Shown here in pieces: positions 2,741 to 35,375 of a DNA stretch of 37,723 nucleotides. The stretch covers positions 1-37,723 of the IMG/VR virus record IMGVR_UViG_3300004369_000051; one strand, 5' to 3'. Every line of letters begins with the position of its first letter. The stretch's first letter is position 1. This DNA is from a virus. The position numbers and the translations under genes are program-made. Below the pieces are notes generated by a model. It saw only the letters and a list, made by a program, of their open reading frames with translations. It made no database searches and was not told the DNA's origin.

Positions 2741-4391
2741 CGACGGCGTTCTCAATGTTTCCCATATACGCCTGAAGTTCTAGATCCCACAACTCTGCCT
2801 TCCGTTCTTTCATCGCTCTGTCTTCATCTATTGCCAGGGACTCGTTCCAGTACTGGATGGCACCGGCCAGGGCGTCGAGACGGTCGTCATGGGCCAGGCA
2901 GTTCTTATCGACGGTGATGTGCGTGAGCTGATGGAACAGCTGATAGGCCAGAGCGGTCTCGATTGGCTCGTCTTGACGACCTTTGCTGTCGAGTTCAACG
3001 ACAGAGCGGTTTACGACCAGGCGGTGCTGGTTCATGACGGGCTCCAGGGCGCTGATGATGCGGCGTTCTTTCTGGACGTTGCTGCGCACGGTTTCGATGG
3101 TGCACGGATGCTGTGCACGCAGATAGGGCTGCAGGAGGCTCTGCAGCATGCCTTGACCGAACTGATCCTCCAGGAGGACCAGGGTGACCTTTCGGCGCCT
3201 TGCAGCGGCTGCTAGGCCCTCCAGGACAGGTTCTGTGTAGCCATCGCTATAGGCACCGACCTCCAGGACGTACAAATTGCCATTCAGGTGGGCGACGATC
3301 GCGTAGGCGGTTTCGTCTGCACCACGACCAGACGGGTCAATGAACATGACGACGCCAGTGAATGGCAGCCAGTCGCCATGGATGAAGGCAGGGCGGTGGT
3401 AGTAGTCCCCGCTGAAGCCAACAGCTGGCAGGTCTGTAACTCGGTATTCAGCTCCTGCAGACCAGACAACCTTTTCAGGGGCGTGGTCATCGACCTCCAG
3501 GACCATGAGGTCTGTCAATCGAAGCGGGAAGCGCTCCAGGTCCGACAGGGTGGTGTCGAGCTGGAACTGCAAGGTGAACTGTGATCGGCCGTAGGAGGCC
3601 TCACGTTCCAGCAGGTCCAGTTCAGAGAAACGACGCGGGTCTGTGGGCTTGTTCTTTTTCTCTTCGCAGTCTTCTCGAATGACTGGCGCCAGGGCGTCGC
3701 CGTACTTAGCCGGGTTAGTGGGGTAACGCGCTGGCCAGATGCGGCAGTCATACCCCCGCATACGGAGCTTGTTGTAGACGCTCTCTTCGGTCTGAGGTGT
3801 GCCGAGCATCATGATCTCGCCACCGGGCTTGAGGATGGCGTTGAACTCACCGACACAGGTCGCCAACTTCTCCCGCATACCGACGGTCCAGCTGGTATTT
3901 GGCACCTCGCAGTCATCCGCCAGGATCAAGTCAGCACGACTACCCGTCAGCTGACCAAAGATCCCCACTGACTTCACAGATGGGCTTTGGTCTGGGATGG
4001 CAGGCCTGACGTCAAACCTGTTGCTTGCACTGCGCTGGTCCTCCCTGTCTGGCTCTAAGCACTGCAACAGGGGCATCTCCCTGATCAGTCGCAGGCAGAA
4101 CTGAGCAAAGTCATCGGCCCTGGTCTTAGAGGCCGACACCACCATGATCTTCTTCTGGGGGTCGTTCCTTAGCAGCCACAACACATAGGCCGCGGCCATC
4201 CAGCTCTTACCTACTCCTCGGAACGCTTCAACAATCCGACGGTTTGACCCCGTCTGCATGTACTCCGCAATGTCCAACTGCACTGGCGTTGGATCTGGCA
4301 GATGCAAATGCCTCCACACCACCACCAGGAAGTACCGGAAGTCCTTACTGAACGGCTCCGGTAAGCCTTGCCAGTTCCTTGTACGTGGCAT
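2673..4391 (-). CDS. terL: Terminase large subunit (T7 gp19-like)
   Basis: The 572-aa protein is the packaging motor that pumps DNA into the prohead and cuts concatemers. The ATPase half shows Walker A at 58-63 (RGVGKS, Lys62) and Walker B ending in LILADD with catalytic Glu162. The nuclease half shows FIDPSGRG (Asp352), LLEDQFG (Asp409) and HDDRLDAL (501-508), the acidic cluster expected of the RNase H-like nuclease. Length matches T7 gp19 (586 aa). Its ATG overlaps the TerS stop by one base. It is on the opposite strand from the virion genes, unlike T7. Confidence 0.95.
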   Translation of the reverse strand: MPRTRNWQGLPEPFSKDFRYFLVVVWRHLHLPDPTPVQLDIAEYMQTGSNRRIVEAFRGVGKSWMAAAYVLWLLRNDPQKKIMVVSASKTRADDFAQFCLRLIREMPLLQCLEPDREDQRSASNRFDVRPAIPDQSPSVKSVGIFGQLTGSRADLILADDCEVPNTSWTVGMREKLATCVGEFNAILKPGGEIMMLGTPQTEESVYNKLRMRGYDCRIWPARYPTNPAKYGDALAPVIREDCEEKKNKPTDPRRFSELDLLEREASYGRSQFTLQFQLDTTLSDLERFPLRLTDLMVLEVDDHAPEKVVWSAGAEYRVTDLPAVGFSGDYYHRPAFIHGDWLPFTGVVMFIDPSGRGADETAYAIVAHLNGNLYVLEVGAYSDGYTEPVLEGLAAAARRRKVTLVLLEDQFGQGMLQSLLQPYLRAQHPCTIETVRSNVQKERRIISALEPVMNQHRLVVNRSVVELDSKGRQDEPIETALAYQLFHQLTHITVDKNCLAHDDRLDALAGAIQYWNESLAIDEDRAMKERKAELWDLELQAYMGNIENAVDAQFLGIPLESLPKAGSSASWI

Positions 4392-4627
4392 CAGCCCGCC
4401 TTACGGCGAAACGTCACCACGTTCTCAATGTCCGGTAAAGCCTGCGCTAAATCCCCAAACGGTGTTCCCTCAACTGGCTGAGCTGTCACCTGGTTGTCCT
4501 TCAAAAACTGACGCAAGATCCCCAGCTCACTCGTCGTGATCGACCCGTCGTCCAACTTCCCCTTCAGATGCTCTGCCAAATCAGCATGCAGCTGACTCAA
4601 TAACTCGTTCGCATCCTTTCGGGCCAT
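4391..4627 (-). CDS. terS: Terminase small subunit (T7 gp18-like)
   Basis: A 78-aa protein directly upstream of TerL, of suitable size for a T7 gp18-like DNA-maturation protein (89 aa in T7). The N-terminal half is helical (about residues 6-42), followed by FGDLAQALPDIENVVTFRR. ATG 4627 is chosen over a longer frame from 4687 because AAGGTGG lies about 9 bases upstream and the extra 20 residues would come from a hairpin and poly-U stretch. The assignment rests on position, size and helical character rather than a diagnostic motif. Confidence 0.8.
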   Translation of the reverse strand: MARKDANELLSQLHADLAEHLKGKLDDGSITTSELGILRQFLKDNQVTAQPVEGTPFGDLAQALPDIENVVTFRRKAG

Positions 4628-4662: not shown

Positions 4663-4699
4663 AAAAAAAGAGCCCCCTACCCACCACAGGAAGGGGCCC
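4663..4699 (-). terminator. Hairpin plus U-run upstream of terS
   Basis: Read on the minus strand, a GGGCCCC arm pairs (with G-U pairs) with GGGGGCUC across a loop of about 12 bases and is followed by seven U. It looks like a rho-independent terminator, yet it lies upstream of terS in the same direction, so it would stop leftward transcripts entering from the control region. The loop, read on the plus strand, holds CCCACCAC at 4680-4687, the element seen before the early genes. Confidence 0.4.
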
Positions 4700-4826
4700 A
4701 CCAACAGGACACCTACACAGGCATCAACTGATCAGCTCACACACCCTACAACACCCCTCCCAAAACCCTGTCCACCACTCACTGTCCACATATGAAGAAG
4801 GGAGGAGAAGAACCACCACCACCCCC

Positions 4827-4899
4827 TCCTATAAGAGTCCTATAAGAATCCCATGAGATCCCATGACTGCTCATGAGATCCCATGACTTCCCTATAAGA
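4827..4899. repeat. CCTATAAGA boxes and 17-bp direct repeat
   Basis: CCTATAAGA occurs at 4828, 4839 and 4891. Between them CATGAGATCCCATGACT occurs twice without mismatch at 4852-4868 and 4872-4888 (20-bp period). The TATAAG cores resemble -10 boxes, but no TTGACA-like -35 lies at the right distance; many cyanobacterial promoters lack one. The three boxes recall the tandem early promoters of T7. They could equally be protein-binding sites for packaging or replication. Confidence 0.6.
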
Positions 4900-5062
4900 G
4901 GGCTGTTTGGCTGTTCATTATCTGGCCGCCAGGCCTTCTTTCGGCTGTTCCCCTTACCCATAGGTCCTCATTGAGTCCCCTCTGACTCCCTAATTCCTCA
5001 CAATGCAGCCCTATGGATCAATCACTCCCATCCCGTAAGACTCCTATGACTGTCCTATGGGT

Positions 5063-5205: not shown

Positions 5206-5396
5206 TCCAGCAGGACCACTGGAGCCGCTGCTGCAGCAGGCTTTCTGGGGGGACTGTGAGACCCAGCAGGGACCACCACCAGGGCCACGGCGGCGCAGGC
5301 CGCAGGCCGGAGCCTCGCCGGAGCTGGTGGCTGTCTTTGTCGGACCGCACAGGCCAACCAGTAGGGCTGCCATAAAGCGGCGCCGGGGGTCTTGTA

Positions 5397-5416
5397 CCCA
5401 CCACGCACCTAGACAA
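5397..5416 (+). promoter_or_regulatory. Early leader element A (CCCACCAC) before gene at 5417
   Basis: CCCACCAC at 5397-5404 is followed by GCACCTAGACAA and the ATG. No purine-rich Shine-Dalgarno sequence is present. The copy before 5641 is nearly identical over this leader, including ACCTAGAC. A short GGCGCC palindrome precedes it at 5379-5384. Confidence 0.6.
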
Positions 5417-5569
5417 ATGGACATCACGATGCGCTCCTCGAAAGAGGAGATGGCCACTGCTGCGGTTGAACTGATCAGCGATCAGGCGCAGCAGGTGGCG
5501 GAGCTGCAGCAACGTCAGGCAGTCCTATGGGCCCTTGTAGGCCTGCTGACTGTCCTGGTGATGCTGTAG
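5417..5569 (+). CDS. Early small membrane protein (50 aa)
   Basis: This is the first gene of the early block. It has a charged, glutamine-rich helical N-terminal part (residues 5-35) and a C-terminal membrane segment (about 36-50, VLWALVGLLTVLVML) that ends the protein, as in tail-anchored proteins. The ATG is fixed by the leader element that also precedes other early genes. No homologous family recognised. First-expressed T7-like genes usually act on the host; an envelope-directed role is inferred from the anchor. Confidence 0.65.
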   Translation: MDITMRSSKEEMATAAVELISDQAQQVAELQQRQAVLWALVGLLTVLVML

Positions 5570-5577
5570 GCAGCACG

Positions 5578-5594
5578 GGGCCCTCTAGGGCCCT
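5578..5594 (+). terminator. Hairpin after first early gene
   Basis: GGGCCCT-CT-AGGGCCC is a perfect stem, followed by TCT rather than a long T-run. It is the first hairpin of the repeated intergenic module and is likely to cause partial termination or protect the upstream mRNA 3' end. Confidence 0.5.
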
Positions 5595-5596
5595 CT

Positions 5597-5640
5597 GCTG
5601 CCCTCTATGGGCAGCTCTTACCCACCACACACCTAGACCT
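5597..5640 (+). promoter_or_regulatory. Early leader module B (hairpin plus CCCACCAC) before 5641
   Basis: A second hairpin, GCTGCCC-TCTAT-GGGCAGC (5597-5615), is followed by TCTTA, then CCCACCAC at 5621-5628 and ACACCTAGACCT directly before the ATG. It shares the arrangement of modules before 5913, 6595 and 6972. No Shine-Dalgarno sequence is visible between the element and the start. Confidence 0.65.
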
Positions 5641-5838
5641 ATGACAACACCGGACATGACCTGGCACCCGCCAACGTCGCTAAAGGGCACCCATTGGCGC
5701 GTTGAATTGCTAGACGTATATGGCTATTGGCGCTGGTACACGGAGCACCTCACGGAGTACGACGCCGAGCGGTTCGCCGGATACAAGCGGCAGTATCACC
5801 CGCATGACAGCTGGCGAGTCGTTAAGGCGACGCGCTGA
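5641..5838 (+). CDS. Early hypothetical protein (65 aa), aromatic-rich
   Basis: A soluble 65-aa protein rich in Trp, Tyr and His (HWRVELLDVYGYWRWYTEHL). Its compact size, single-domain look and early position suit a host-takeover inhibitor, but no family is recognised. The start is set by the leader module. Confidence 0.6.
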   Translation: MTTPDMTWHPPTSLKGTHWRVELLDVYGYWRWYTEHLTEYDAERFAGYKRQYHPHDSWRVVKATR

Positions 5839-5849
5839 ACTCAGCACTG

Positions 5850-5868
5850 AGGCCCTGCGGGGCCTTTC
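5850..5868 (+). terminator. UNCG-loop hairpin after the gene ending at 5838
   Basis: AGGCCC pairs with GGGCCT around a TGCG loop closed by C-G, a very stable UNCG tetraloop, followed by TTCT. It is the first hairpin of module C. The short U-stretch suggests partial termination. Confidence 0.6.
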
Positions 5869-5869
5869 T

Positions 5870-5912
5870 GCTGGGCTCTTTGCCCAGCTTTTACCCACCA
5901 CAACAGACGACC
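5870..5912 (+). promoter_or_regulatory. Early leader module C (hairpin plus CCCACCAC) before 5913
   Basis: GCTGGGC-TCTTT-GCCCAGC (5870-5888) followed by TTTT looks like a second terminator in tandem. CCCACCAC follows at 5894-5901, then 11 bases to the ATG. Two terminator-like stems between two genes in one operon imply that each gene is transcribed or processed separately. Confidence 0.65.
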
Positions 5913-6395
5913 ATGACAATGACTGAAGCAGTCCCTAGCAACGCTGAGCAGAACGCTCGGGGCTGGGTTGAGACGATCACAGCAGCGCATGAGGCCTGGG
6001 GCTTTTGTTCTGCAGGGTTCCACCACCTGAGTCAGGAGGCGCGGAGCCTGTCGAGAGAGGCCAGGGCATGCATGAAAGAGCACGGCTTTGATGGCACCAA
6101 CCACGACGACGTGGCTGAGGCGATTGAAGAGGGCATGCGAGAGGCTGCCCTATCGGTTGAAGTGCGCAGCGGGTGGCAATCACCCGATGAGCACCTGGAG
6201 CCTGAGGAGTTTCAGATTTTGCTGACTTGGGGCGGCCCTGCGCTGCGACTGGTCGGGGAACTGGAAGACCTGCAGCCGTGCCGTAGCTGGTTTGAAGTGC
6301 AGGACTGGGGCACGCCCTGGACTGCGACGCACTGCCAGCACGAGAGGGAAGTCGAGGCGAAGAACTGGTTCGCTGGTCTCTTCTGGTTCGGCTGA
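5913..6395 (+). CDS. Conserved early phage protein (160 aa)
   Basis: The C-terminal half contains LLTWGGPALRLVGEL, SWFEVQDWGTPWT and a final NWFAGLFWFG. I recognise this pattern as recurring in conserved hypothetical proteins of many phages and plasmids, with no known activity. The N-terminal half is helical with charged residues and DGTNHDDVAEAIEEGM. ATG 5913 is fixed by the leader module; longer frames have no support. It is followed after 3 bases by a small membrane-protein gene, so those two form a unit. Confidence 0.75.
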   Translation: MTMTEAVPSNAEQNARGWVETITAAHEAWGFCSAGFHHLSQEARSLSREARACMKEHGFDGTNHDDVAEAIEEGMREAALSVEVRSGWQSPDEHLEPEEFQILLTWGGPALRLVGELEDLQPCRSWFEVQDWGTPWTATHCQHEREVEAKNWFAGLFWFG

Positions 6396-6398
6396 GCC

Positions 6399-6527
6399 AT
6401 GCATAGGCACTTCCCTATGGCGTTCTGCCTGGCTGCCTGCCTGCTGGCCTGGGGCTTGATCCTGGGTCAGCTGGCGGAGCCGAGCTACCCGGACCGTCGC
6501 ACCATGACGGAGTATCCGGGCCCTTGA
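6399..6527 (+). CDS. Small membrane or exported protein (42 aa)
   Basis: Begins 3 bases after the preceding stop. Residues 6-26 are hydrophobic (MAFCLAACLLAWGLILGQLA) after a basic start (MHRHF), then a short polar tail. It could be a membrane protein or, given the Ala/Cys-rich core, a signal-like peptide. No leader module of its own, so it relies on coupling with the upstream gene. No family recognised. Confidence 0.5.
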   Translation: MHRHFPMAFCLAACLLAWGLILGQLAEPSYPDRRTMTEYPGP

Positions 6528-6538
6528 TCCCATCACTA

Positions 6539-6558
6539 AGGGGCTGCGGCCCCTTTCT
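6539..6558 (+). terminator. UNCG-loop hairpin with T-stretch
   Basis: AGGGGC pairs with GCCCCT around TGCG (UNCG loop), followed by TTCT. It closely resembles the hairpin at 5850 and the capsid terminator at 20402. Confidence 0.65.
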
Positions 6559-6594
6559 GCTGGGTTCACCAGCACCACCCACCACAACGGACCT
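6559..6594 (+). promoter_or_regulatory. Early leader module D before 6595
   Basis: Second hairpin GCTGG-GTTCA-CCAGC (6559-6573), then CCCACCAC at 6578-6585, then AACGGACCT and the ATG. The GGACCT end is shared with module F, where it precedes a TTG start. Confidence 0.6.
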
Positions 6595-6906
6595 ATGAGC
6601 TACGCACTAAGCCGCTGCCCTGCGGACACAGTCGCCAGCCGTCACCCAGGCCAGCGGTTGTACTTCCATCTATGGGCGCACGATTTTGGAGAGGCTGAGC
6701 TGGTCGGCAGCTACGACACACACAAGGAGGCAAAGGCTGTGGCCGATCGCATCCTGTCGGAGCTGCGGGCTTGGGAGTACGCCTGCCCTTGGTTCAGCTA
6801 CGAACACGGGCCAGCGCTTGAGCCTTCAGTGATTGCGCCTGACTACTGCAACAGCAGCACCCCATACAGTGGCCCCTCAGCTGCCGGCTGGGGTCGCCAG
6901 GACTGA
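6595..6906 (+). CDS. Early hypothetical protein (103 aa)
   Basis: A soluble protein with an apparent alpha/beta core (QRLYFHLWAHDFGEAELVG, then a helix at KEAKAVADRILSELRAWEY) and a low-complexity Ser/Pro/Gly tail. No membrane segment or catalytic motif. The start is fixed by module D. No family recognised. Confidence 0.65.
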   Translation: MSYALSRCPADTVASRHPGQRLYFHLWAHDFGEAELVGSYDTHKEAKAVADRILSELRAWEYACPWFSYEHGPALEPSVIAPDYCNSSTPYSGPSAAGWGRQD

Positions 6907-6916
6907 CCCTCTCACT

Positions 6917-6933
6917 GGGCCCTACGGGGCCCT
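6917..6933 (+). terminator. UACG-loop hairpin after the gene ending at 6906
   Basis: GGGCCC-TACG-GGGCCC is a perfect stem with a UNCG-type loop. It lacks a long T-run (TCT only). First hairpin of module E. Confidence 0.55.
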
Positions 6934-6937
6934 CTGA

Positions 6938-6971
6938 GGGGCTCACAAGCCCCACTACCACCCACCACACC
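6938..6971 (+). promoter_or_regulatory. Early leader module E before 6972
   Basis: Second hairpin GGGGCT-CACA-AGCCCC (6938-6953) is followed by ACTACCA, CCCACCAC at 6961-6968 and only three bases before the ATG. The short spacing shows that the distance between element and start is not fixed (2-12 bases across copies). Confidence 0.6.
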
Positions 6972-7166
6972 ATGGACCTGTCGCAACTGGCCTCGATCGA
7001 GGCACGACTGCAGCGCCTAGACGATCAGCACAACCAGCTAACTGAGCGCCTGCACGCTGGGCTGTCGCGTTACGAGTTGCTGCGGATAAGCGGGGAGCTG
7101 CGTGCTGTCGGTGCGCAGATCAGCCACCTGCGCAACGCATGCAGCAGGCTTTACAACAGCCTGTAA
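6972..7166 (+). CDS. Early coiled-coil protein (64 aa)
   Basis: Almost wholly helical with Leu/Ile heptads from residue 5 to 60, broken only near GLSRYE. It probably dimerises. Such small coiled-coil early proteins may bind a host enzyme, but no family is recognised. The start is fixed by module E. Confidence 0.65.
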   Translation: MDLSQLASIEARLQRLDDQHNQLTERLHAGLSRYELLRISGELRAVGAQISHLRNACSRLYNSL

Positions 7167-7180
7167 CTATTTGTCGGTGG

Positions 7181-7227
7181 CCGGCTGCAGTGCAGTCATG
7201 CTCTGCCGGTCCCCACCACAAGGACCT
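7181..7227 (+). promoter_or_regulatory. Early leader module F before a TTG start
   Basis: A looser hairpin (CCGGC 7181-7185 with GCCGG 7205-7209) is followed by CCCACCAC at 7212-7219 and AAGGACCT, then TTG. Alignment with module D (AACGGACCT-ATG) places the TTG exactly where the others have ATG. Here AAGGA also gives a Shine-Dalgarno-like site. Confidence 0.55.
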
Positions 7228-7404
7228 TTGAAAGAACCCGCCCATCGGCTGTTGCAACAAGCAGCAGCCCGACTCAATGCGGATGGACACAGCGCACTAG
7301 CCGCTGATGTTTTGCAGCTGTCCAGGTACTGGACACCAGAGGCAGAGCGTCGCCTAGTTGGCGAGCCATCCGATGCCACGTTTCACCCATTGCATGACGC
7401 CTAA
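7228..7404 (+). CDS. Early hypothetical protein with TTG start (58 aa)
   Basis: The start is inferred from the leader element rather than from an ATG, since none fits in this frame after 7102. The protein is helical and soluble: KEPAHRLLQQAAARLNADG, then ADVLQLSRYWTPEAERRL. The stop overlaps the next ATG (TAATG), indicating coupled translation. No family recognised. Confidence 0.55.
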   Translation: MKEPAHRLLQQAAARLNADGHSALAADVLQLSRYWTPEAERRLVGEPSDATFHPLHDA

Positions 7405-8918: not shown

Positions 8919-9994
8919 TGAAAAGCAAAGAAGAACGCGGCATCTACAAGAGAGGCAACACGTTTGTCGTTGACATCAGAGTCAAGGGCAAGCGAGCAGT
9001 TGAGGTGTGCCCCAGCCATGACGTTGCATTGATCAGACGTGATGAGCTGCGGGCACAGCTACGCCGTGCAGCACAGCAGCTGATCGGGCTGCCTGCTGCT
9101 GGCAACAGCTGGACCATGCACAAGGCACTGCGCACCAGCGCTGATGTGCGGTGGCGTGGCAGTAAGGACGGCACCAAGGCCATCAGCCGAGCCAAGGAGG
9201 CAGTTGAGTTCTTCGGGCGGGACACTGCCCTGGATGAGGTGACAACTGAGCGCATTGACCAGTGGGTCAAGGCACTCAAGGCCAAGGGCAATCAAAGCGG
9301 CACCATCAACCGCAAGCTGTACGCCCTGTCGGCACTGTTCACTGACGCCTTAGACCGTGGTGGCTGCAGCCGTAAGCCACGCATGCAGCGCCAGTCAGAA
9401 CCACCGCATCGCATCCGCTACTTGAGTGCAATGGAAGAGCGGCAGGTGTGCATGCACCTGCTGCAGTGGGGCGAGGTTGCCAGTCAGCAGGCTGTTGTCG
9501 TCTTACTGGACACCGGCATGCGGGTTGGTGAGCTGATGGCACTGCGCGTCAACGACGTCGACCTGGGCCACAACCTGATCAGCGTGTGGGAGAACAAGGC
9601 AGACCTGCCTCGCTCTATCCCGATGACTGATCGGGTGCGGCAGATCATTGGCGATCGGTGCATCACCCGCAAAGGCCTGGTGTTTGACGACCTGCAACGC
9701 AGCCACTTTGAGTACAGCTGGAACAAGGCCCGCAAGGAGATGGGCCTAGACAGTGACGATCAGTTTGTGCTGCATGCCCTGCGCCACACCTGCGCCACGC
9801 GCCTAGTGCAGCGTGGCGTCAGCCTTTACACGGTGCAGAAATTGCTGGGTCACAGCAGCATCACCGTCACCGAGAAGTACGCACACCTGTCAGGCCGTGA
9901 GCTGGCAGATGCAATCAACGTCTTGCAACAACCCACCACCCATGAGCACGGCGTTCTTCGGACAGCAGACAAGCAGCCGGTCACGGTCAGCTGA
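8918..9994 (+). CDS. int: Tyrosine recombinase / integrase
   Basis: The 358-aa protein has an N-terminal beta-rich arm (1-60), a core-binding SAM-like domain (65-150) and a catalytic domain (165-335). The active site is complete: Arg202 in TGMRVGEL, Lys227, His286/Arg289 in HALRHTCATRL, His312 in LGHSSI and Tyr321 in TEKYAHLS. It should carry out site-specific recombination. Integrases upstream of the RNA polymerase are known in several marine cyanopodoviruses. Its last 53 bases overlap the polymerase gene, so an attP cannot lie between them. No excisionase or repressor was recognised. Confidence 0.93.
   Translation: MKSKEERGIYKRGNTFVVDIRVKGKRAVEVCPSHDVALIRRDELRAQLRRAAQQLIGLPAAGNSWTMHKALRTSADVRWRGSKDGTKAISRAKEAVEFFGRDTALDEVTTERIDQWVKALKAKGNQSGTINRKLYALSALFTDALDRGGCSRKPRMQRQSEPPHRIRYLSAMEERQVCMHLLQWGEVASQQAVVVLLDTGMRVGELMALRVNDVDLGHNLISVWENKADLPRSIPMTDRVRQIIGDRCITRKGLVFDDLQRSHFEYSWNKARKEMGLDSDDQFVLHALRHTCATRLVQRGVSLYTVQKLLGHSSITVTEKYAHLSGRELADAINVLQQPTTHEHGVLRTADKQPVTVS
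9932..9941 (+). promoter_or_regulatory. CCCACCAC element before the RNA polymerase start
   Basis: CCCACCAC lies inside the integrase gene, ending two bases before ATG 9942. The early leader element thus recurs at the only other module-opening gene of the early/middle region. Here it is coding sequence for the integrase, so chance is not excluded. Confidence 0.4.
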
Positions 9995-13367: not shown

Positions 13368-14949
13368 GGCATGCCCCCAATGCAACAGCAAAGACAACCT
13401 GGCTAGGTACGACGACGGACACGCGACGTGCTTTGGCTGCGGATACCAAGAACAACCAAAGAAGGACGACCCACCACCCATGCCTGTCCTGGCACCACCA
13501 AAGGCCAAGCTGCTGGACTTCATCAGCTGCAAGGCGCTGGCAAAGCGCGGCCTAACTGAACAAACCTGCAAGCTTTACGAGTACGGCACCACTACCCACA
13601 ACGGACAAGCCGTCCAGGTCGCCACCTATCGAGATCAAAAGGGTGCGCCTATTGCGCAGCACCTGCGGTACGTCGACAAGAAGTTCCGCTGGATTGGTGA
13701 CACCAGCAACGTGCAGCTATGGGGTCAGCACCTATGGCGCCAAGGCCATGGCGGTGGCACCAACATGTTCGTCGTTGTCACCGAAGGTGAGATCGACGCA
13801 CTCAGCGTCAGCCAAGTACAGGGCAACAAGTTCCCGGTTGTCTCTCTGCCTAACGGTGCGCAGTCGGCACGTAAGTACCTGGCCGGCAACCTGAAATGGC
13901 TGAGTCAGTTCAGCCGCATCGTGCTGTGCTTTGACAGCGACGAGCCAGGGATTGCAGCAGCTGAAGATGCAATGAACGTCCTGCCGCTGGGCAAGGTGGC
14001 GATCTGCCGTCTGCCCCGCAAGGACGCCAACGAAATGCTGATGGCAGGCGAGGGCGAGAAGCTCCGTGACCTGCTGTGGAAAGCAACCCCGGTTCGCCCA
14101 GACGGGATCGTCAACGCAGCTGATCTATGGGATGAGCTGATCCGACCTGGTGCTGTATCTGCCTGCGATTATCCATGGCCGCAGCTCAGTGCTGTCACCC
14201 GTGGTTTCCGTAAGGGAGAAATGGTCACGCTGACAGCAGGCAGTGGCACGGGTAAGTCATCCATCTGCAGGGAGTGGGCCTATCACTTTTTGCAGGCAGG
14301 CCTGCGCGTTGGATACATCGCCCTTGAAGAGTCACTGCAGCGCACGCTTCAAGGAATCATCGGTATTCAGCTGAGCAAACCCATCCACCTGGACCCTACC
14401 CTTGCCAAGGAGGAGGAGATCAAGGCGGCGTTTGACCAACTGCTTGGGACGGGTCGCCTCTTTCTCTATGACCACTTCGGGTCAATGGATCCCGATCGGT
14501 TGATTGAACAGATCCGCTACCTGGCTGACGTCGAACAGGTAGACGTTGTCTTCCTTGATCACTTGACCATCGTCATCAGTGGCCTCGCTGACCTTGATGA
14601 ACGACGGGCAATCGACGTCACATGCACCAAGCTCAGGCAGGTTGTTGAACAGACCGGGATTGGCTTGGTGCTGGTGTCACACCTCAAGCGACCTGAAGGC
14701 CGCGGCCATGAAGAGGGTGGGCAGACAAGCCTGTCGCAGTTGAGGGGAAGTCACGCCATTGCCCAGCTCAGTGACCTTTGCATAGGAGCAGAACGCAACC
14801 AGCAAGGAGACACAGCAGAGCGCAGTGAGTTGCAGTTGAGAGTTCTCAAGAATCGCTTCACCGGACAAACCGGCCCGGTCGACAGACTTCTGTATGACCA
14901 GGACACCGGGCGCTTGTGCGTGCCCATGTCCCATTACTTCGGCACGTAG
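13342..14949 (+). CDS. Primase-helicase (T7 gp4-like)
   Basis: The 535-aa bifunctional enzyme unwinds DNA and makes primers at the fork. ATG 13342 removes a stretch overlapping the endonuclease. Zinc ligands are Cys11, Cys14, Cys30 and Cys33 (CPQC...CFGC). The TOPRIM domain has VTEGEIDAL (Glu148) and CFDSDEPG (Asp198/Asp200). The RecA-like helicase has GSGTGKSS (Lys305), VDVVFLDHLTI and VLVSHLKRP, then a DnaB-type arginine-finger region near LKNRFTG. Met47, after the zinc finger, is preceded by CCCACCAC and corresponds to the T7 4B start (Met64). Confidence 0.95.
   Translation: MPSKFLRHEACPQCNSKDNLARYDDGHATCFGCGYQEQPKKDDPPPMPVLAPPKAKLLDFISCKALAKRGLTEQTCKLYEYGTTTHNGQAVQVATYRDQKGAPIAQHLRYVDKKFRWIGDTSNVQLWGQHLWRQGHGGGTNMFVVVTEGEIDALSVSQVQGNKFPVVSLPNGAQSARKYLAGNLKWLSQFSRIVLCFDSDEPGIAAAEDAMNVLPLGKVAICRLPRKDANEMLMAGEGEKLRDLLWKATPVRPDGIVNAADLWDELIRPGAVSACDYPWPQLSAVTRGFRKGEMVTLTAGSGTGKSSICREWAYHFLQAGLRVGYIALEESLQRTLQGIIGIQLSKPIHLDPTLAKEEEIKAAFDQLLGTGRLFLYDHFGSMDPDRLIEQIRYLADVEQVDVVFLDHLTIVISGLADLDERRAIDVTCTKLRQVVEQTGIGLVLVSHLKRPEGRGHEEGGQTSLSQLRGSHAIAQLSDLCIGAERNQQGDTAERSELQLRVLKNRFTGQTGPVDRLLYDQDTGRLCVPMSHYFGT
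13470..13479 (+). promoter_or_regulatory. CCCACCAC before an internal in-frame ATG of the primase-helicase
   Basis: The early leader element occurs at 13470-13477, two bases before ATG 13480, the same spacing as at the RNA polymerase. The codons read Asp-Pro-Pro-Pro-Met. Initiation here would give a 489-aa helicase form without the zinc finger. Confidence 0.35.
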
Positions 14950-19289: not shown

Positions 19290-19420
19290 ATTGACGCTTT
19301 ACATGCTTATCATTTGTCTACCTAGACCTTCTCACGGAAACGACGGCCCTCTGCGGAGGACACCCCCAGTGGAAGGAGGCGCGGTCGGGGTAACAACCCA
19401 ACTTTTCTAGGAGACCAGCA
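19290..19420 (+). promoter_or_regulatory. Capsid gene leader, probable promoter region
   Basis: The 131 bases between the terminator and the capsid ATG hold TTGACG at 19291 without a convincing -10 at 17 bases (TATCAT is only 11 bases away), so a phage-polymerase promoter is more likely than a host one. ACCTAGACCT at 19320-19329 repeats the text found before the early genes at 5641 (and in part 5417). A purine-rich region and AGGAG 8 bases before the ATG give strong ribosome binding, in contrast to the early genes. Confidence 0.45.
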
Positions 19421-20389
19421 ATGGCTGCCCCTAATTTTGACGCCTCGCGTCTTGGCCTAGTCAATAACACTGGCACGGCCTATGACGCACTTTTCCTTAA
19501 GGTGTTTGCCGGTGAAGTGCTGACCGCCTTCCGTAAGGCAACCATCTTCGAAGGACTGCATACAGTCCGCACGATCAGCTCAGGCAAGAGCGCCCAATTC
19601 CCCATCATTGGCCTTGCTTCGACTGCGTATCACACCCCGGGCACCATGCTGACCGGGTCGCAGATCAAGCACGCTGAAGCTGTCGTCAACATCGACGACA
19701 AGCTGGTTAGCCAAGTTTTCCTGGCTGACATTGACGAGGCCAAGAATCACTACGACGTGAGGTCGCAGTATTCGCTTGAGATGGGCAACGCTCTGGCCTA
19801 TCGCTTTGACCAGAACGTCGCAGCGATGGTTGCCAAGGCTGCTCGCACCGCCACCAACTTCAACACTGATCTGCCCGGCGGCACCCAGATCAACATCACC
19901 GCCGCTTCCAAAGCCGCTATCACTGGCGCTCAGTTGGCAACTACGTTGTTCAGCGCAGCCCAGAAGATGGACGAAAACAACCTGCCCCAGGACGGCCGCT
20001 ACTGCGTGCTGCCCCCTGCGCAGTATTACAAGCTCGTTCAAGAGACCAACGTCATCAACCGTGACTGGGGCGGCCAAGGCGCTTACGCCGACGGCACCGT
20101 TCTGCGCGTGGCTGGCATTGACATCGTCATGTCCAACCACCTGCCCACCACCAACCGCTCTGCGGTGACTGGTGAGAACAACGCCTACAACGCTGACTTC
20201 ACCAACAGCGTTGGCCTGATCTTTAACAAGCAGGCAGTCGGCACCGTGAAGCTGATGGATCTGAAGATGGAGCAAACCGGCTCCGACGTGCATGCCCTGT
20301 GGCAAGGCACCTTCATGGTCGGCTCTATGGCACTGGGCACCAACGTCCTGCGCCCCGACTGTGCAATCGAGATCACCACTTCCGCCTGA
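19421..20389 (+). CDS. Major capsid protein (T7 gp10-like)
   Basis: The 322-aa protein carries the T7-type capsid pattern: RLGLVNNTGTAYDALFLKVF, TVRTISSGKSAQFPIIG, TPGTMLTGSQIKHAE and VFLADIDEAKNHYDVRSQYS, ending with a C-terminal WQGTFMVGSMALG stretch. It forms the HK97-fold icosahedral shell. The close AGGAG site, own leader and flanking terminators imply high expression. No frameshift site for a gp10B-like minor form is evident near the stop, which is followed at once by a terminator. Confidence 0.95.
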   Translation: MAAPNFDASRLGLVNNTGTAYDALFLKVFAGEVLTAFRKATIFEGLHTVRTISSGKSAQFPIIGLASTAYHTPGTMLTGSQIKHAEAVVNIDDKLVSQVFLADIDEAKNHYDVRSQYSLEMGNALAYRFDQNVAAMVAKAARTATNFNTDLPGGTQINITAASKAAITGAQLATTLFSAAQKMDENNLPQDGRYCVLPPAQYYKLVQETNVINRDWGGQGAYADGTVLRVAGIDIVMSNHLPTTNRSAVTGENNAYNADFTNSVGLIFNKQAVGTVKLMDLKMEQTGSDVHALWQGTFMVGSMALGTNVLRPDCAIEITTSA

Positions 20390-30500: not shown

Positions 30501-33500
30501 CCTGCCCAGAAGATTCAGGCACGAGAGGAAGCCGAGGACCTGGTCGACAACGCGATGGGCACCCTGCTGCCAGAGCAGCGGGATGAGGCTGAGGCATTGA
30601 TTCGCCGGGCCCTTGCGGGCGAAGTCACCCCTGAGCAGCGGGCAATGCTGGAAGGCAAGCCTGCGGCTGGCCCTGCCTTCACCCTGCCTGAAGGCCTGAG
30701 CAAGGCAGCCCCACGCTATGGCTACGGCCGCAAGCAGTTCACTCTGCAATTCGCCAGCGACCTGGACCGCACCGCTTACGTGCTGGCCAATGACGTCAAG
30801 ACGCGATCGAAGTCTGCCGGCAAGTTTGAAGAGGCCGTTGCTGCAGCGGGCCTTGACCTGCCCGCCATTCGCTCCCACGGCGACCAGGTCCGCAGCTACA
30901 TCAAAGGCCTGGCCAAGGATGCCCAGCCTGGCCGGATTGACATTCCCGATCAGGGCTTTGGCGGCCGTGAAGCGCCCCTGGCCAGCGAAGCGCCTGCCGG
31001 CCGGGGCGCTGTGGAGCCCGCTGGCGAGGGCATGACGGGCTTGCGTGCAGCGGTCGTCAAGCGCGAGCGAGACATTGCCCGCCAGACAGTTGACGCAATG
31101 CGCCGCGAGCTTGATCGCTGGGGTGCCAGCAACCCCGAACCCGTTGGCGACGCTGCTGCACGACTGCGCTGGGTCAAAGAGCGCAGCTCTCGCGTGCAAG
31201 ACGTCGTTGATGCCAGCGACGCCATGCTGGAGGCGCTCAAGGCGCCGGTCGGCAAGGGCCAGGTTGTAATCCCTGAGCGCTATGGATTCCAGTGGGCACA
31301 GCTAAGCCCTGACGTCAGAAGAGGCGTCGGCCAGACGATTGCCGAAGACCTTAAGCGGATGCTTGGGGACGAGATCGGCCTGCGCTTCGAGGATGGATTC
31401 TTTCTCCATCCCAAGGCAGACGCCTGGGGCGGCACCGGCAACCCCGCTGACCTGTCGTTTGCTAACGGCGTCTTTGACCCGTTTGAAAACCTGATCACGC
31501 TCTACAACTTCCGCTACCTGATGGGAGGCGTGCAGCGCAAAATCTCAACTGCATGGCACGAAGCGTTCCACGCCATTCAGTACAACTTCCTGACACTGCA
31601 GGAGCTGAGGGCCCTTAATGGCTGGTTTGCTCAGGTCCGCCTGGGCCAGTCCAAGCGGGCTGACGCGAAGGGCCTACTTGAGCAGCAGGCAACCTCCTAC
31701 GAGAGGTACGTCTACGCCCGCGAAAACGGCCTACCTGTCGCGGCCTACATGCTCAAGGTTCCAGCAAAGCTTCTTAAGGGCACAGACCTGTCCCCCGAGA
31801 AAAAGGCAATGGTTGATGCCGCAGCTGGCATCATCGAGACCTTTGACCGCCTGACGGACTTCGTGGAGAAGGTGGGCAACTTCCTCTCCACCCGTGGCTG
31901 GACGTCGACCAGGCAGCTGTTTGAGGACGCCTACAGCGGACGCTTGGCTCAGCGTGGCCCTCTTGGCAACGCGCTTGAGGAGGGCGGCGAAAGAGCCAGG
32001 GTTCTTCGCGCAACCAAGAGGAAGGGTGAAATTGGCATTGAGGGCAGGTTCCAGGGCCTGGCTTCCGAGATGGAACCGCCAAAGCCTCCTGGTACACGGT
32101 CCCCTGACCTGGGCGACGACGACCCTGACTGGGTCACTCGCTGGACTCGCACCCTGCAAGAGAACAAGGAGCGCCTGCTCAGCGGCGAAACCACGATGGA
32201 AGAGCTGTATGCGGCCAACAAGTTCGCCAAGCCACGCAGCCCTTCTGGCGCCCAGGTCTACACAGGTCAAAGCGAAGACCTGATCCCTGGCCTGTCGGCA
32301 ATGAGCGACGTGTCGCCTGGCCGCCCCGAGATGACTGGGTTCCGCATCTTCAATGGACTAGAGGTCCAGCAGATGAACCAGCAATGGTTCGACCGTCACG
32401 GTGAAGACGGGCAGGCTATCCTCTCCGGCCTAGACAAGCTGACTGGTGGCTTTAGCGAATACGAGCATGGCGCCTTGAACCGCGCCATGGATTACGCAGA
32501 CAAGCTGCAGGTCCGCGCACAAGAAGAGGCTGCGATCTGGCTCACCAGCGCAGGCGACCCCAACATCAACCGTCAAGTGCAACTGTCGCGGCTGATCGTC
32601 GCGGCTGACTCCGCCCGTCGGATGCACATTGCAATCGCCAAGGTCACCCGCCCCTGGGGTCAGCTGGGCCTTGAGATGCAAATGCCCAGGGACTACGGCT
32701 ATGGGCCGTCCACTGGTCAAGCTGTTGACGTGCCTGCCACTGCTGTTGTTGAGGGCCAAGCCCCAGCTGCAGCACCGGCCGCGGCCCAGGGCGAAGCTGG
32801 CAACGTTGTTGAAACCGCTCTGCGCGAGGAGCTGGACGTCCCTGCCGGCACCAACCCAGTCGTCGACGAGGTCGCATCCAAGTTCCCCGATCTCCGGGAA
32901 GCAGTGGAAGGCGGGGAGATGACGATCGACGCGGAGGCTGTCGCTGATGAAATTGCCAACACCCTGCTGGTGATGGGCGATCAGCCGGCAATGCGCACCA
33001 AGCTGTGGCGGGCATTTGACTCGCTGCCTCCTGGCGCAAGTGACCGCGAGAACCCTCTTAACGCCTTGCAAATTCTGCGCAGCAGCAACCTGCTAACCAG
33101 TGGCGTGACGGTGTCGAAGAACCTGTTCAACGGTGTCTTCAACCTGTCCCGCTTGACGGTTTCGCAGGCTGTCGGCGGCGCCCTGGAGCGCGACTGGGAG
33201 CGAGCCCTGTACTCGACCCAAATGTTCGGCAACTACCTGAACAACATCGGCCAAGCGTTGCGCGTTGCAAGCACCACCTGGCGGACAGGTCGGCCCACCT
33301 TCAACATCGACTCCAGCTCGCTGGACTTCCTGGATCGCATTGCGGCCCGCGAAGCCCAGGCAGAGCTGGCTGGCACGGCAGCAAATGCCCGCACGGGCTA
33401 CACGCTGAACACGCTTGACATGAGCCAGCAGTTTGCGGAGAGCCGGGCTGGCAAGTTCGCCAACGGCTTGTGGCAAACCCTGGGCACCGTTGGCGGCCGC

Positions 33501-35375
33501 GCCGCAATCACGATTGACGCTTTCAACAGCTCGCTGGCGGGACACTCCTACGAGTTCTTCCGTCACATGCCGCGAGGCATGGAGCTGGCCGTCAACGCTG
33601 GCCACGAGAAGTTCAGCAAGGAAGCGTTTGACTACGCCTACAAGTACGCCGAAGCAAGGGTCGACCAGGCCATCCGTGACGTCGTCGTCAACGGCGAGAC
33701 GCTGGCTGACATGGCGATGCAAAGCCCACATGCCCAGAAGTTCATGGACGCCGTGAACTTCACCGACAAGATCTGGGCTGATCTAGAGCCACGCGATCTT
33801 GCCCAGGGCATGCAGATTGGCAAGGCTCAAGGCTTGAGCGGTTCAGAGCTAACCGACTTCGCCCGCAAGTACGTCGACGAGGGCCTCTGGTATCACAAGG
33901 CAGCAGACGCCATGCTCAATGGCCCGCTGCCGGCGGGTCGCCTGGCCTCCCTGCCCGGGGAAGCGCTGGACACCCTGTCGAACATGAAGTTCGTCGGCCC
34001 GGTGTTCCGGTTCATTCAGCCGTTCCAACGGGTGCCGTCAAACATCATCAAGTCCACGGCTCGCAACACCCCTGCTGCCGTCTTTGTAGACACCTGGTGG
34101 CGTGACGTTGCAAGCTCCGACCCCGGCACCCGTCAGCGGGCCCTGGGCGAGTTTGCTGTGGGCTCAGGCGTGGCTGTTGCCTTGTGGACCGCGTCAAACC
34201 TTGGCCGCATCCGCTTCAACGGCGGTGGGCCAATCGACCCGCAGCTCAAGGAGAAGTGGCTGAAGGACCGGCAGATGCCCTACAGCGTGCAGTTCTGGGA
34301 TGAGGACGAAGCTCGCTGGGGTGACGCCTGGTCTGTCGCAGCGTTTGAACCATTTGCCAGCTTGCTTGGCGGGTTTGGCGATTACAGCGACACCGCCGCA
34401 ATGATGACGACTGAGCAGCGCGAGCAGGCAGGCGCCTCACTGGTCTTTGACCTGATGAAGCTGCAAGCAAGTGGCTTGCTGAGCAAGACCTACTTCTCTG
34501 GGATTAACGAGCTGTATGAAGCTGCGTTTGATCCCAGCAAGGTCTTCACTGGACCCAATAAGCGCAGCGCTCAAAGCCGCTTCCTGCAGCGCACGATTGC
34601 CAGCATGGTCCCCTACAGCTCAGCGCTACGGCAGGCGCGTCGTTCAACTGACCCGATCAGCCGCAGCGTCATGCCTTCTACGGAAGGTGGCTTTGGCGGC
34701 TTCTGGCAAGAGACCTGGGACGAAATCAAGAACGCATTGCCTGGTTTCTCCCAGGAGTTGCCGGCCAAGCGCGACTGGACTCTTCCTGGGGCCCCTCCCG
34801 TCTACACCCCAAGCCTGATGTGGAGCAACGAGCTGGCAGAAAACGCACCGTTTGCAGCTGCTCTTATGCAGTTCGTGCCATTTGTCTCTGCATTTGCCAA
34901 GGGCTACCAAGCAGGCGACCCGGTACAGCAGGAAATGTTCAACATGCACGGGAAGGGCACTGCCTTCTCCGGGCCCAGGGCGTCTGACTTTGGTCGGGAA
35001 ATGTACCTGTCTCCAACGGAGCTGGGCACCTACCAGGAAATGTTTGCGACCGTCAAGGACGAGAGTGGACGCACCTGGCACACGACGGTCGAATCGCTGA
35101 TTCGCACCCGCGATTACCAGTCCCTCCCTGTTGAGCCTCCTTCCGGCCAATACGTCAGCTACCGGGCGGCAATGATCCAGTCGGAGATTGACCGCTACAA
35201 GAAGCTGGCCAAGGACCTGTTCTTGAACACAACGCCGAAGGGCGCTGAAATCAAGGCATCACAAGAACAGCTTCAGGGTCGTCAGGATGAACTCAATTAC
35301 ATCCGTCAGTACGGTGTGCCTGGTGCTTCAGCGACTGGCGCTGACAACTTTCAAATCCTGGAGCTGAACCGCTGA
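27516..35375 (+). CDS. Giant internal core protein (T7 gp16-like), polyvalent type, 2619 aa
   Basis: About twice T7 gp16 (1318 aa). Residues 1-320 have hydrophobic stretches. Residues about 485-570 look like a ParB/sulfiredoxin-type domain (VVNGHNRLRLAQ near 514, then an Ala/Glu helix region). About 1060-1150 is a domain with RKQFTLQFASDLDRTAYVL and RSHGDQVRSYIKGLAKD that I associate with large phage polyvalent proteins. His1348-Glu1349...His1352 (WHEAFHAIQ) is a zincin HExxH motif. Residues about 1830-2619 resemble the core-protein C-terminus (ILRSSNLLTSGVTVSKNLFN). It is probably ejected into the host and may protect or help the DNA. No frameshift seen. Tail fibre begins in its stop (TGATG). 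Confidence 0.88.
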   Translation: MSDFKYVKNADGTVTKTYVGPTAPAKPAATAPDPQARGYGPLTIASNPILSTGASLNTGFQAFYDELMRQKQGDRNLARAYQVGLEAYANDLQRPGSGRGLQRVVAGGGRNLAQSLANLQGLGKEVSAGDSPFPLLNAPLPPIKPKGDLEKFGQDMVTTSLAWVPATRLLSIGARGALMVPGVASATAPIVQAGKTAAAFAKGAGPVVPFVNKPVGAVAVKAGQLYTEGAGTGYLVDLLAFSPEAQAAQKGAEDWVNKNEGIIPGLREYVQSEPGDTQAEARFKQANMGAAVTGPAFNYGLFGISRVARGLFNMSRKAATRRPAADPPTVDVDVVDPANPVNPTSGPNAPMPVGGIKKGGQAAADLERLQSRQPRPYETPGVATQERLDLPNKPWQPTPPATDEEIVAAAREIVSAQSDLDRAAVRAKSTVPDEVGAPDLAQQPTAAPTRSMVRQVSPQEVVARPQEMQYKAAGQLNRYGTSGSLTKAEVFDEQLGGLISVWRDPATGELVVVNGHNRLRLAQMKGAEAINVMEIPAASAQEARAIGALQNIAEGQGTAWDAAKLMRDMSYTPGSLQEKGIDLGGRIARDAVPLARLPKEIFEKGATGGLSLDKAIALGSVEGLDEAVVRDVAARAAKGKFSADKIAQAMQEARFATTQGPAGGVLPGMEELFKTSNFDRLLNVRTEAYRALREQMVALSSAANLKRTGILEAAGNVIDVEGSRAAKDQAAAALNLFNQVTGYVGPVRELLTEMAGQIKGNVSAKKVVAENLDRLRNAIEAEVNGGRLPLEEQPAPTRQLTPEQERTLLGSEGRVQALQELDPQRLAQERQQAVKILEAQERQTAERLSTAAQRVSPEAVADADRYGLNPRYVQKWMDLPETALATEMRLLAGNELSQRQYTSRVQRLQAMDANDAAVFQYMDEMPGSNSAKELSQEAFDAKYGDTQPVLTPRAELNKVTRELDRHDLAVAAVDWYNDWAARPKGEVKRQAVDATPAQKIQAREEAEDLVDNAMGTLLPEQRDEAEALIRRALAGEVTPEQRAMLEGKPAAGPAFTLPEGLSKAAPRYGYGRKQFTLQFASDLDRTAYVLANDVKTRSKSAGKFEEAVAAAGLDLPAIRSHGDQVRSYIKGLAKDAQPGRIDIPDQGFGGREAPLASEAPAGRGAVEPAGEGMTGLRAAVVKRERDIARQTVDAMRRELDRWGASNPEPVGDAAARLRWVKERSSRVQDVVDASDAMLEALKAPVGKGQVVIPERYGFQWAQLSPDVRRGVGQTIAEDLKRMLGDEIGLRFEDGFFLHPKADAWGGTGNPADLSFANGVFDPFENLITLYNFRYLMGGVQRKISTAWHEAFHAIQYNFLTLQELRALNGWFAQVRLGQSKRADAKGLLEQQATSYERYVYARENGLPVAAYMLKVPAKLLKGTDLSPEKKAMVDAAAGIIETFDRLTDFVEKVGNFLSTRGWTSTRQLFEDAYSGRLAQRGPLGNALEEGGERARVLRATKRKGEIGIEGRFQGLASEMEPPKPPGTRSPDLGDDDPDWVTRWTRTLQENKERLLSGETTMEELYAANKFAKPRSPSGAQVYTGQSEDLIPGLSAMSDVSPGRPEMTGFRIFNGLEVQQMNQQWFDRHGEDGQAILSGLDKLTGGFSEYEHGALNRAMDYADKLQVRAQEEAAIWLTSAGDPNINRQVQLSRLIVAADSARRMHIAIAKVTRPWGQLGLEMQMPRDYGYGPSTGQAVDVPATAVVEGQAPAAAPAAAQGEAGNVVETALREELDVPAGTNPVVDEVASKFPDLREAVEGGEMTIDAEAVADEIANTLLVMGDQPAMRTKLWRAFDSLPPGASDRENPLNALQILRSSNLLTSGVTVSKNLFNGVFNLSRLTVSQAVGGALERDWERALYSTQMFGNYLNNIGQALRVASTTWRTGRPTFNIDSSSLDFLDRIAAREAQAELAGTAANARTGYTLNTLDMSQQFAESRAGKFANGLWQTLGTVGGRAAITIDAFNSSLAGHSYEFFRHMPRGMELAVNAGHEKFSKEAFDYAYKYAEARVDQAIRDVVVNGETLADMAMQSPHAQKFMDAVNFTDKIWADLEPRDLAQGMQIGKAQGLSGSELTDFARKYVDEGLWYHKAADAMLNGPLPAGRLASLPGEALDTLSNMKFVGPVFRFIQPFQRVPSNIIKSTARNTPAAVFVDTWWRDVASSDPGTRQRALGEFAVGSGVAVALWTASNLGRIRFNGGGPIDPQLKEKWLKDRQMPYSVQFWDEDEARWGDAWSVAAFEPFASLLGGFGDYSDTAAMMTTEQREQAGASLVFDLMKLQASGLLSKTYFSGINELYEAAFDPSKVFTGPNKRSAQSRFLQRTIASMVPYSSALRQARRSTDPISRSVMPSTEGGFGGFWQETWDEIKNALPGFSQELPAKRDWTLPGAPPVYTPSLMWSNELAENAPFAAALMQFVPFVSAFAKGYQAGDPVQQEMFNMHGKGTAFSGPRASDFGREMYLSPTELGTYQEMFATVKDESGRTWHTTVESLIRTRDYQSLPVEPPSGQYVSYRAAMIQSEIDRYKKLAKDLFLNTTPKGAEIKASQEQLQGRQDELNYIRQYGVPGASATGADNFQILELNR

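Follow-up and report, generated by a model that had tools for sequence, protein, structure and literature searches.

Several phages are known to encode antisense RNAs. The c4 RNA of P1 and P7, whose complementary sequences probably lie in loops, pairs with the ant message around its ribosome-binding site and blocks translation, the sar RNA of P22, by antisense pairing with the ant mRNA, hinders the initiation of its translation, and lambda OOP RNA and CfrI of cyanophage S-PM2 are further examples; those that have been reviewed mostly have one phage target (PMC12197685). Here we describe a short element, CCCACCAC, in a T7-like phage genome, the IMG/VR virus record IMGVR_UViG_3300004369_000051 (37.7 kb; "the window" below is this whole stretch of 37,723 nucleotides). 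The element stands before early genes and is probably the target of a trans-acting antisense RNA that the phage itself encodes in the leader of terS, the gene of the terminase small subunit, and that would shut off early translation.

The proposed RNA resembles c4 in being phage-encoded and in its predicted pairing around a ribosome-binding site. It differs from c4, which acts on ant alone and is involved in immunity, by its many early targets and by its place in the terminase leader of a T7-like phage. With sar it shares the predicted antisense pairing against translation initiation, but sar has one target and functions in the establishment of lysogeny, whereas here a short target is repeated before unrelated genes. 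OOP RNA and CfrI are cis-encoded and linked to cII and psbA, while in the present case distant genes would be reached via 9-10 nt. By homology, the terS-leader RNA is outside the c4 RNA family, and the window and six relatives gave no Rfam match at the gathering score. A multi-gene regulon with coordinated change of loop and target would go clearly beyond the known single-target phage RNAs.

The motif and its position, the leader hairpin and its working strand, the exact complementarity of the two and their coordinated change were established by computation. TerL and TerS of the window are encoded on the minus strand, and the terS leader carries a hairpin (hairpin B) with the loop UGUGGUGGGU, the exact complement of the early motif. 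The stem sequence of hairpin B varies between genomes. When 24 distinct elements were aligned, its 12 bp were paired in 99.3% of cells, and 50 cells were changed on both sides (0/500 shuffles); shifting the partner by one column lets the pairing fall to 64-71%, and RNAalifold recovers the structure independently. The loop TCCTGTGGTGGGT is invariant in this alignment. The leftward strand folds better in 40/40 elements, and the G.U pairs of the outer stem number 69 leftward vs 10 on the other strand, the leftward ones being mismatches on the early strand; selection therefore acts on the leftward RNA. A U tract follows hairpin B in 8/39 genomes, including the window, and because it is there a terminator-like run of seven T, part of the leader transcripts of the window may end at hairpin B as a free small RNA. 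In AT-rich relatives, a leftward promoter of sigma70-like type (TGGACA-16-TATATT) is seen upstream of the leader. The terS leaders of L044, L064, L046 and L096 form another hairpin (A) on the 5′ side of hairpin B; several AT-rich members have UCCCC in the loop of hairpin A, which resembles the complement of GGGA in early hairpins. We considered, by eye, a pairing of this loop (AUCCCC) with the early hairpins of AT-rich members and rejected it, as the order of the segments is wrong for simple pairing.

In the mechanism that we propose, the antisense RNA would be the leader at the 5′ end of the terS-terL transcript, which runs leftward, and hairpin B would present its loop for pairing in trans with ACCCACCAC(A). 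A hairpin immediately upstream would keep the target single-stranded at a distance of 0-18 nt from the start codon of most early genes; in some members, the target also precedes the internal primase start and the genes of integrase and RNA polymerase. Since such pairing covers the ribosome-binding region (complementarity spans 9-13 nt, at 0-18 nt before starts), early genes are expected to be turned off together at the level of translation, presumably once leftward (terminase) transcription has begun. That both RNAs are produced jointly, that they pair, that repression follows and that it is timed in this way we infer. Should this hold, one RNA serves as a shared off-switch for the early genes in a widespread marine phage group, and the target motif flags early genes of unknown function for annotation. 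To our knowledge, gene timing in T7-like cyanophages is poorly known. The broader proposal, namely that a T7-like lineage runs its early-to-late switch post-transcriptionally, with one terminase-leader loop silencing nearly all early genes via co-evolving cassettes that incoming genes acquire, is in our view about evenly poised between right and wrong.

The window contains 10 copies of CCCACCAC, all on the plus strand, where 2.14 are expected and 0/100 shuffles reach 10. The excess disappears as soon as one mismatch is tolerated (53 vs 49.6), so that the exact sequence matters. An earlier, sequence-only reading of the window had named six starts with the element just upstream; all six indeed have it (at 5397, 5621, 5894, 6578, 6961 and 7212), with gaps of 12, 12, 11, 9, 3 and 8 bases to the ATG codons at 5417, 5641, 5913, 6595 and 6972 and the TTG at 7228, respectively. 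Three further copies, which that reading did not contain, are found at 9932 (RNA polymerase start), 13470 (internal Met of the primase) and 4680 (the hairpin loop, beyond the other end of the early region), the last being conserved even in the cultured relative P-SCSP1u, where the early copies are inexact. The copy at 20144, inside the capsid gene, looks incidental. None of the late genes of the window has a start-proximal motif, such copies belonging to early and replication genes. The motif before the RNA polymerase start is kept in the close relatives L002-L004. The one within the primase-helicase gene, directly past the zinc-binding domain, is also present in L003-L006, L021, L022 and L060, which suggests an internal start yielding a short primase-less form that resembles T7 gp4B. 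In L038, L040, L049 and L060, the motif precedes starts that, judged by the N-terminus, are probably those of integrase.

The window encodes a T7-like RNA polymerase (RNAP), an integrase, a primase-helicase and the terminase small subunit; no DNA polymerase gene was noticed in its list of open reading frames, for which no dedicated search was made. With a T7-like RNAP and a TerL related to that of P-SCSP1, it is an MPP-C-like cyanopodovirus. Among isolates, the nearest to it are MPP-C cyanopodoviruses (P-SCSP1 of Prochlorococcus MED4), with RNAP 60% and TerL 79% identical. The P-SCSP1 series, which belongs to the same lineage, is described in PMC9860041, which makes no mention of promoters. 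In the literature, we found nothing on leader or antisense RNAs in the MPP-C-like group and nothing relevant on the motif. Because the GC content of its early region (0.59) is far above that of the P-SCSP1 isolates (0.39), the host of the window is probably a different picocyanobacterium from theirs. A phage collection held no close DNA relative of the early region, viral contigs scanned with a single early protein and with an over-long DNA pattern gave no match, and no TerL relatives were found in host genomes. Searches with RNAP and TerL, in turn, collected well over 100 related contigs. P-SCSP2 (L106) deviates from the rest of the clade in that its TerL (33033-34754, 52% identical) is encoded on the plus strand; CCCACCAC is absent from its genome.

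For the clade-wide counts we used the early regions of 33 non-redundant relatives, with RNAP 57-98% identical to that of the window, and took as start-proximal a motif 0-16 nt before an ATG that opens at least 40 codons. Enrichment of the element before starts in related phages, which the sequence-only reading had put forward as a check, is strong: there are 97 copies on the early strand, 55 of them start-proximal, and 5 on the opposite strand, whereas the mean for other permutations of its letters is 6.8 copies on the early strand and 2.4 near starts. The sole permutation that comes near these counts, CACCCACC, overlaps the motif. This supports the view that early genes have their translation starts marked by the element. 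The conserved stretch, (C/A)ACCCACCAC(A), measures 9-10 nt, has a sharp boundary and coincides with the complement of the loop. Where records are complete or long, the copies gather toward the terS end, on the early strand.

If loop and motif pair, loop variants should be matched by motif variants. Among genomes with the standard loop, 28/32 have start-proximal CCACCAC (87 sites), while none of the 22 genomes scored as hairpin-less has it, about a dozen of the latter, from two clades, being informative and carrying this conclusion. Eight of the hairpin-less rows form a distant clade (55-56% TerL identity), in which TerL is probably rightward as in P-SCSP2, and L065 and L075 carry a far hairpin that the cut-off missed, L065 having motif sites as well. 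In a first coordinated change, the loop GUAGUGGG (the A-loop class) is combined with early CCACUAC in one clade (L080, L084, L085, L096, L098, L107, L118, L121, L146, L147, L149, L150, L152). Start-proximal CCACTAC was found in 6/6 non-redundant genomes of this clade with enough sequence, and CCACCAC in 0; the sites lie just past a hairpin and are followed by AAAAAGGAG or a similar stretch. In a second change, L008 and L036 have the loop GUGGCGGG (C-loop), and both of their early cassettes read CCCGCCAC. At one of these sites, CUCAACCCGCCAC, the complementarity to the loop extends over 13 nt. The other site belongs to the first CCCGCCAC gene (MTYEESF...), the ortholog of an L033 gene that is preceded by CUACACCCACCAC, which contains CCCACCAC and is complementary to the loop and flank of L033 itself. 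In a TerL tree, the A-loop class is one clade and the C-loop genome is sister to a G-loop genome. Both loop changes can pass via a G.U intermediate, and an A-loop or C-loop opposite unchanged sites would be 5-8 kcal/mol weaker than the standard pair. The compensatory change expected of a trans-acting antisense RNA of a phage is present here as two coordinated changes, few as these events are, and the natural loop classes would offer a ready test of specificity. The pairing of loop and motif is well supported by this evolutionary record.

The terS hairpin is present in the cultured relative P-SCSP1u, together with two early leaders that can pair with it. When its 38 annotated leaders were scored against its own loop, the top two were those of early genes, namely leader 37134 (AAUCCACCAGGAGAAAUU, -21.8 kcal/mol) and leader 79 (CAACCCACUACAAAAAGGAG, -21.2 kcal/mol), with the third-ranked leader at -17.2; 0/500 permuted loops gave two leaders that low. 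The second site is also preceded by a small hairpin, GGTAGATTTTCTACC. This opens the antisense idea to testing in a laboratory system.

Several observations weigh against an antisense RNA of this kind. The independent coordinated changes are only two, the second being limited to one lineage. In the A-loop class the gain in pairing energy is negligible (-13.8 vs -13.5), so that the argument from this class is the absence of the A.C-mismatched form, and CCACUAC occurs once in P-SCSP1u despite an unchanged loop, as a G.U pair, for which reason the first change rests mainly on the absence of CCACCAC. L110, which has no hairpin B, contains one CCACTAC before a start (CCACTACAGGAGG, early strand 4042), and L122 is an exception with one start-proximal CCACCAC. 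The inner part of the loop is self-complementary (CCU/GGG), so that target pairing needs some opening. A leftward promoter upstream of the leader is not clear in GC-rich members, and the window has no convincing one. Finally, L039, L042 and L059 carry the hairpin and are among those without start-proximal CCCACCAC. Such genomes, with few or no early targets, would fit a role of the hairpin for terS itself, and thus a real but reversed pairing, by which early messages control terS translation or termination in its leader, or by which the RNA stabilises or activates early messages. We consider this unlikely, as one loop opposite many targets at ribosome-binding regions is the layout of a trans-acting repressor, and the targets are not covered by an inhibitory structure that pairing could relieve.

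That all copies lie on the same strand near gene starts would also agree with a DNA site for a phage protein, i.e., a regulator or the phage RNAP at its promoter. The terS copy would then be one more such site, as the terS region would be expected to share it, and the hairpin would be incidental or a terminator; the protein could co-evolve with altered sites, and CCACCAC is also found within another conserved element of the control region beside terS (window 4772-4778). However, conservation stops after 9-10 nt, against the roughly 17-20 bp of T7-type promoters, the motif of LUZ100 having, for instance, 17 bp (PMC10134795). The control region has a different T7-like element, CTGTCCACTATAGAAGAAG / GGACACTATAGGAGA, messages would be leaderless where only 0-4 nt separate the motif from the ATG, and the strand-specific G.U pairs of the hairpin would be purposeless in duplex DNA. 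A DNA site is therefore very improbable. As the main explanation, a phage promoter was rejected, because the conservation is too short and the other T7-like element is present; the motif shows neither a conserved stretch of 17-20 bp nor an occurrence before late genes.

Another alternative to the antisense RNA is that the element is CA-rich and unstructured and serves as a landing site or enhancer for ribosomes, recognised by the ribosome itself, a host factor or a host RNA. In the clade-wide folding, the motif is unpaired at 0.72 vs 0.44 at other starts, and a single-stranded element 0-18 nt before starts, often without a Shine-Dalgarno sequence and also before the internal primase start, would suit such a role. 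That Shine-Dalgarno sequences are mostly lacking, as the sequence-only reading had it, is true of GC-rich members (one between motif and ATG in 6/44) and less so of AT-rich ones (13/32), which often carry an ordinary Shine-Dalgarno sequence too. Neither the requirement for an exact 9-mer, nor the restriction to early and replication genes, nor variation that follows that of a viral hairpin loop would be expected of an enhancer, and we give this explanation hardly any weight. Host ribosomal or small RNA is likewise unlikely as the partner, because the motif changes coordinately with the viral loop. A general translation signal or a protein site, as had been suggested for the element, thus explains it less well than a target of the terS-leader loop does.

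The two hairpins described ahead of four of the sites were borne out, as were C(UNCG)G loops in three of the first hairpins (sites 5894, 6578 and 6961), and both hairpins and motif have statistical support across the clade: the 71 nt upstream of 76 sites have a mean folding z of -1.78 vs -0.52 at 198 other starts (p 1.5e-11). This agrees with selection maintaining the architecture of hairpin and motif. The first hairpins, for which a role in ending or protecting the upstream mRNA had been suggested, have a weak T tract. The upstream hairpins would hold the motif single-stranded and separate neighbouring cassettes. That cassettes are exchangeable gains support from the second sites of L036 and L033, which stand before unrelated proteins.

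Features of the window discussed in the text, with positions counted from its first nucleotide
Feature	Positions	Strand	Remarks
terS, terminase small subunit; leader carries hairpin B	4391-4627	-	phrog_891, 3.8e-13
Hairpin B of terS leader	4670-4699	-	covarying stem; loop complementary to target motif
Anti-target loop 5′-UGUGGUGGGU-3′	4679-4688	-	
Target motif ACCCACCAC, early gene 1	5396-5404	+	open reading frame 5417-5569
Two hairpins before gene 2	5578-5593, 5597-5615	+	
Target motif ACCCACCAC, early gene 2	5620-5628	+	open reading frame 5641-5838
Two hairpins before gene 3	5849-5866, 5870-5888	+	UGCG loop in first
Target motif ACCCACCAC, early gene 3	5893-5901	+	open reading frame 5913-6395
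Two hairpins before gene 4	6538-6555, 6559-6573	+	UGCG loop in first
Target motif ACCCACCAC, early gene 4	6577-6585	+	open reading frame 6595-6906
Two hairpins before gene 5	6917-6932, 6938-6953	+	UACG loop in first
Target motif ACCCACCAC, early gene 5	6960-6968	+	open reading frame 6972-7166
Target motif CCCACCAC, early gene 6	7212-7219	+	TTG start, 7228-7404
Target motif before RNA polymerase	9931-9939	+	2 nt before ATG 9942, within 3′ end of integrase gene
Target motif within primase-helicase gene	13469-13477	+	2 nt before in-frame internal Met (ATG 13480, codon 70)

In the control region beside terS, a rightward element, CTGTCCACATATGAAGAAG, is found at window positions 4782-4800. It is homologous to CTGTCCACTATAGAAGAAG (P-SCSP1u 36737) and resembles GGACACTATAGGAGA (P-SCSP2 34756); it is T7-promoter-like, occurs once per genome and adjoins terS, and is perhaps the promoter of the phage RNAP close to the end of the genome. 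Positions 4828-4910 hold short repeats, TCCTATAAGA / TCCCATGAGA in type, which resemble the T7 repeats beside the terminal repeat, and the genome ends may lie within this stretch. Furthermore, ACCTAGAC is present in the leaders of early genes 1 and 2 of the window, and ACCTAGACCTTCT, upstream of the major capsid gene, is conserved in the window (19320-19332) and P-SCSP1u (L024, 10344).

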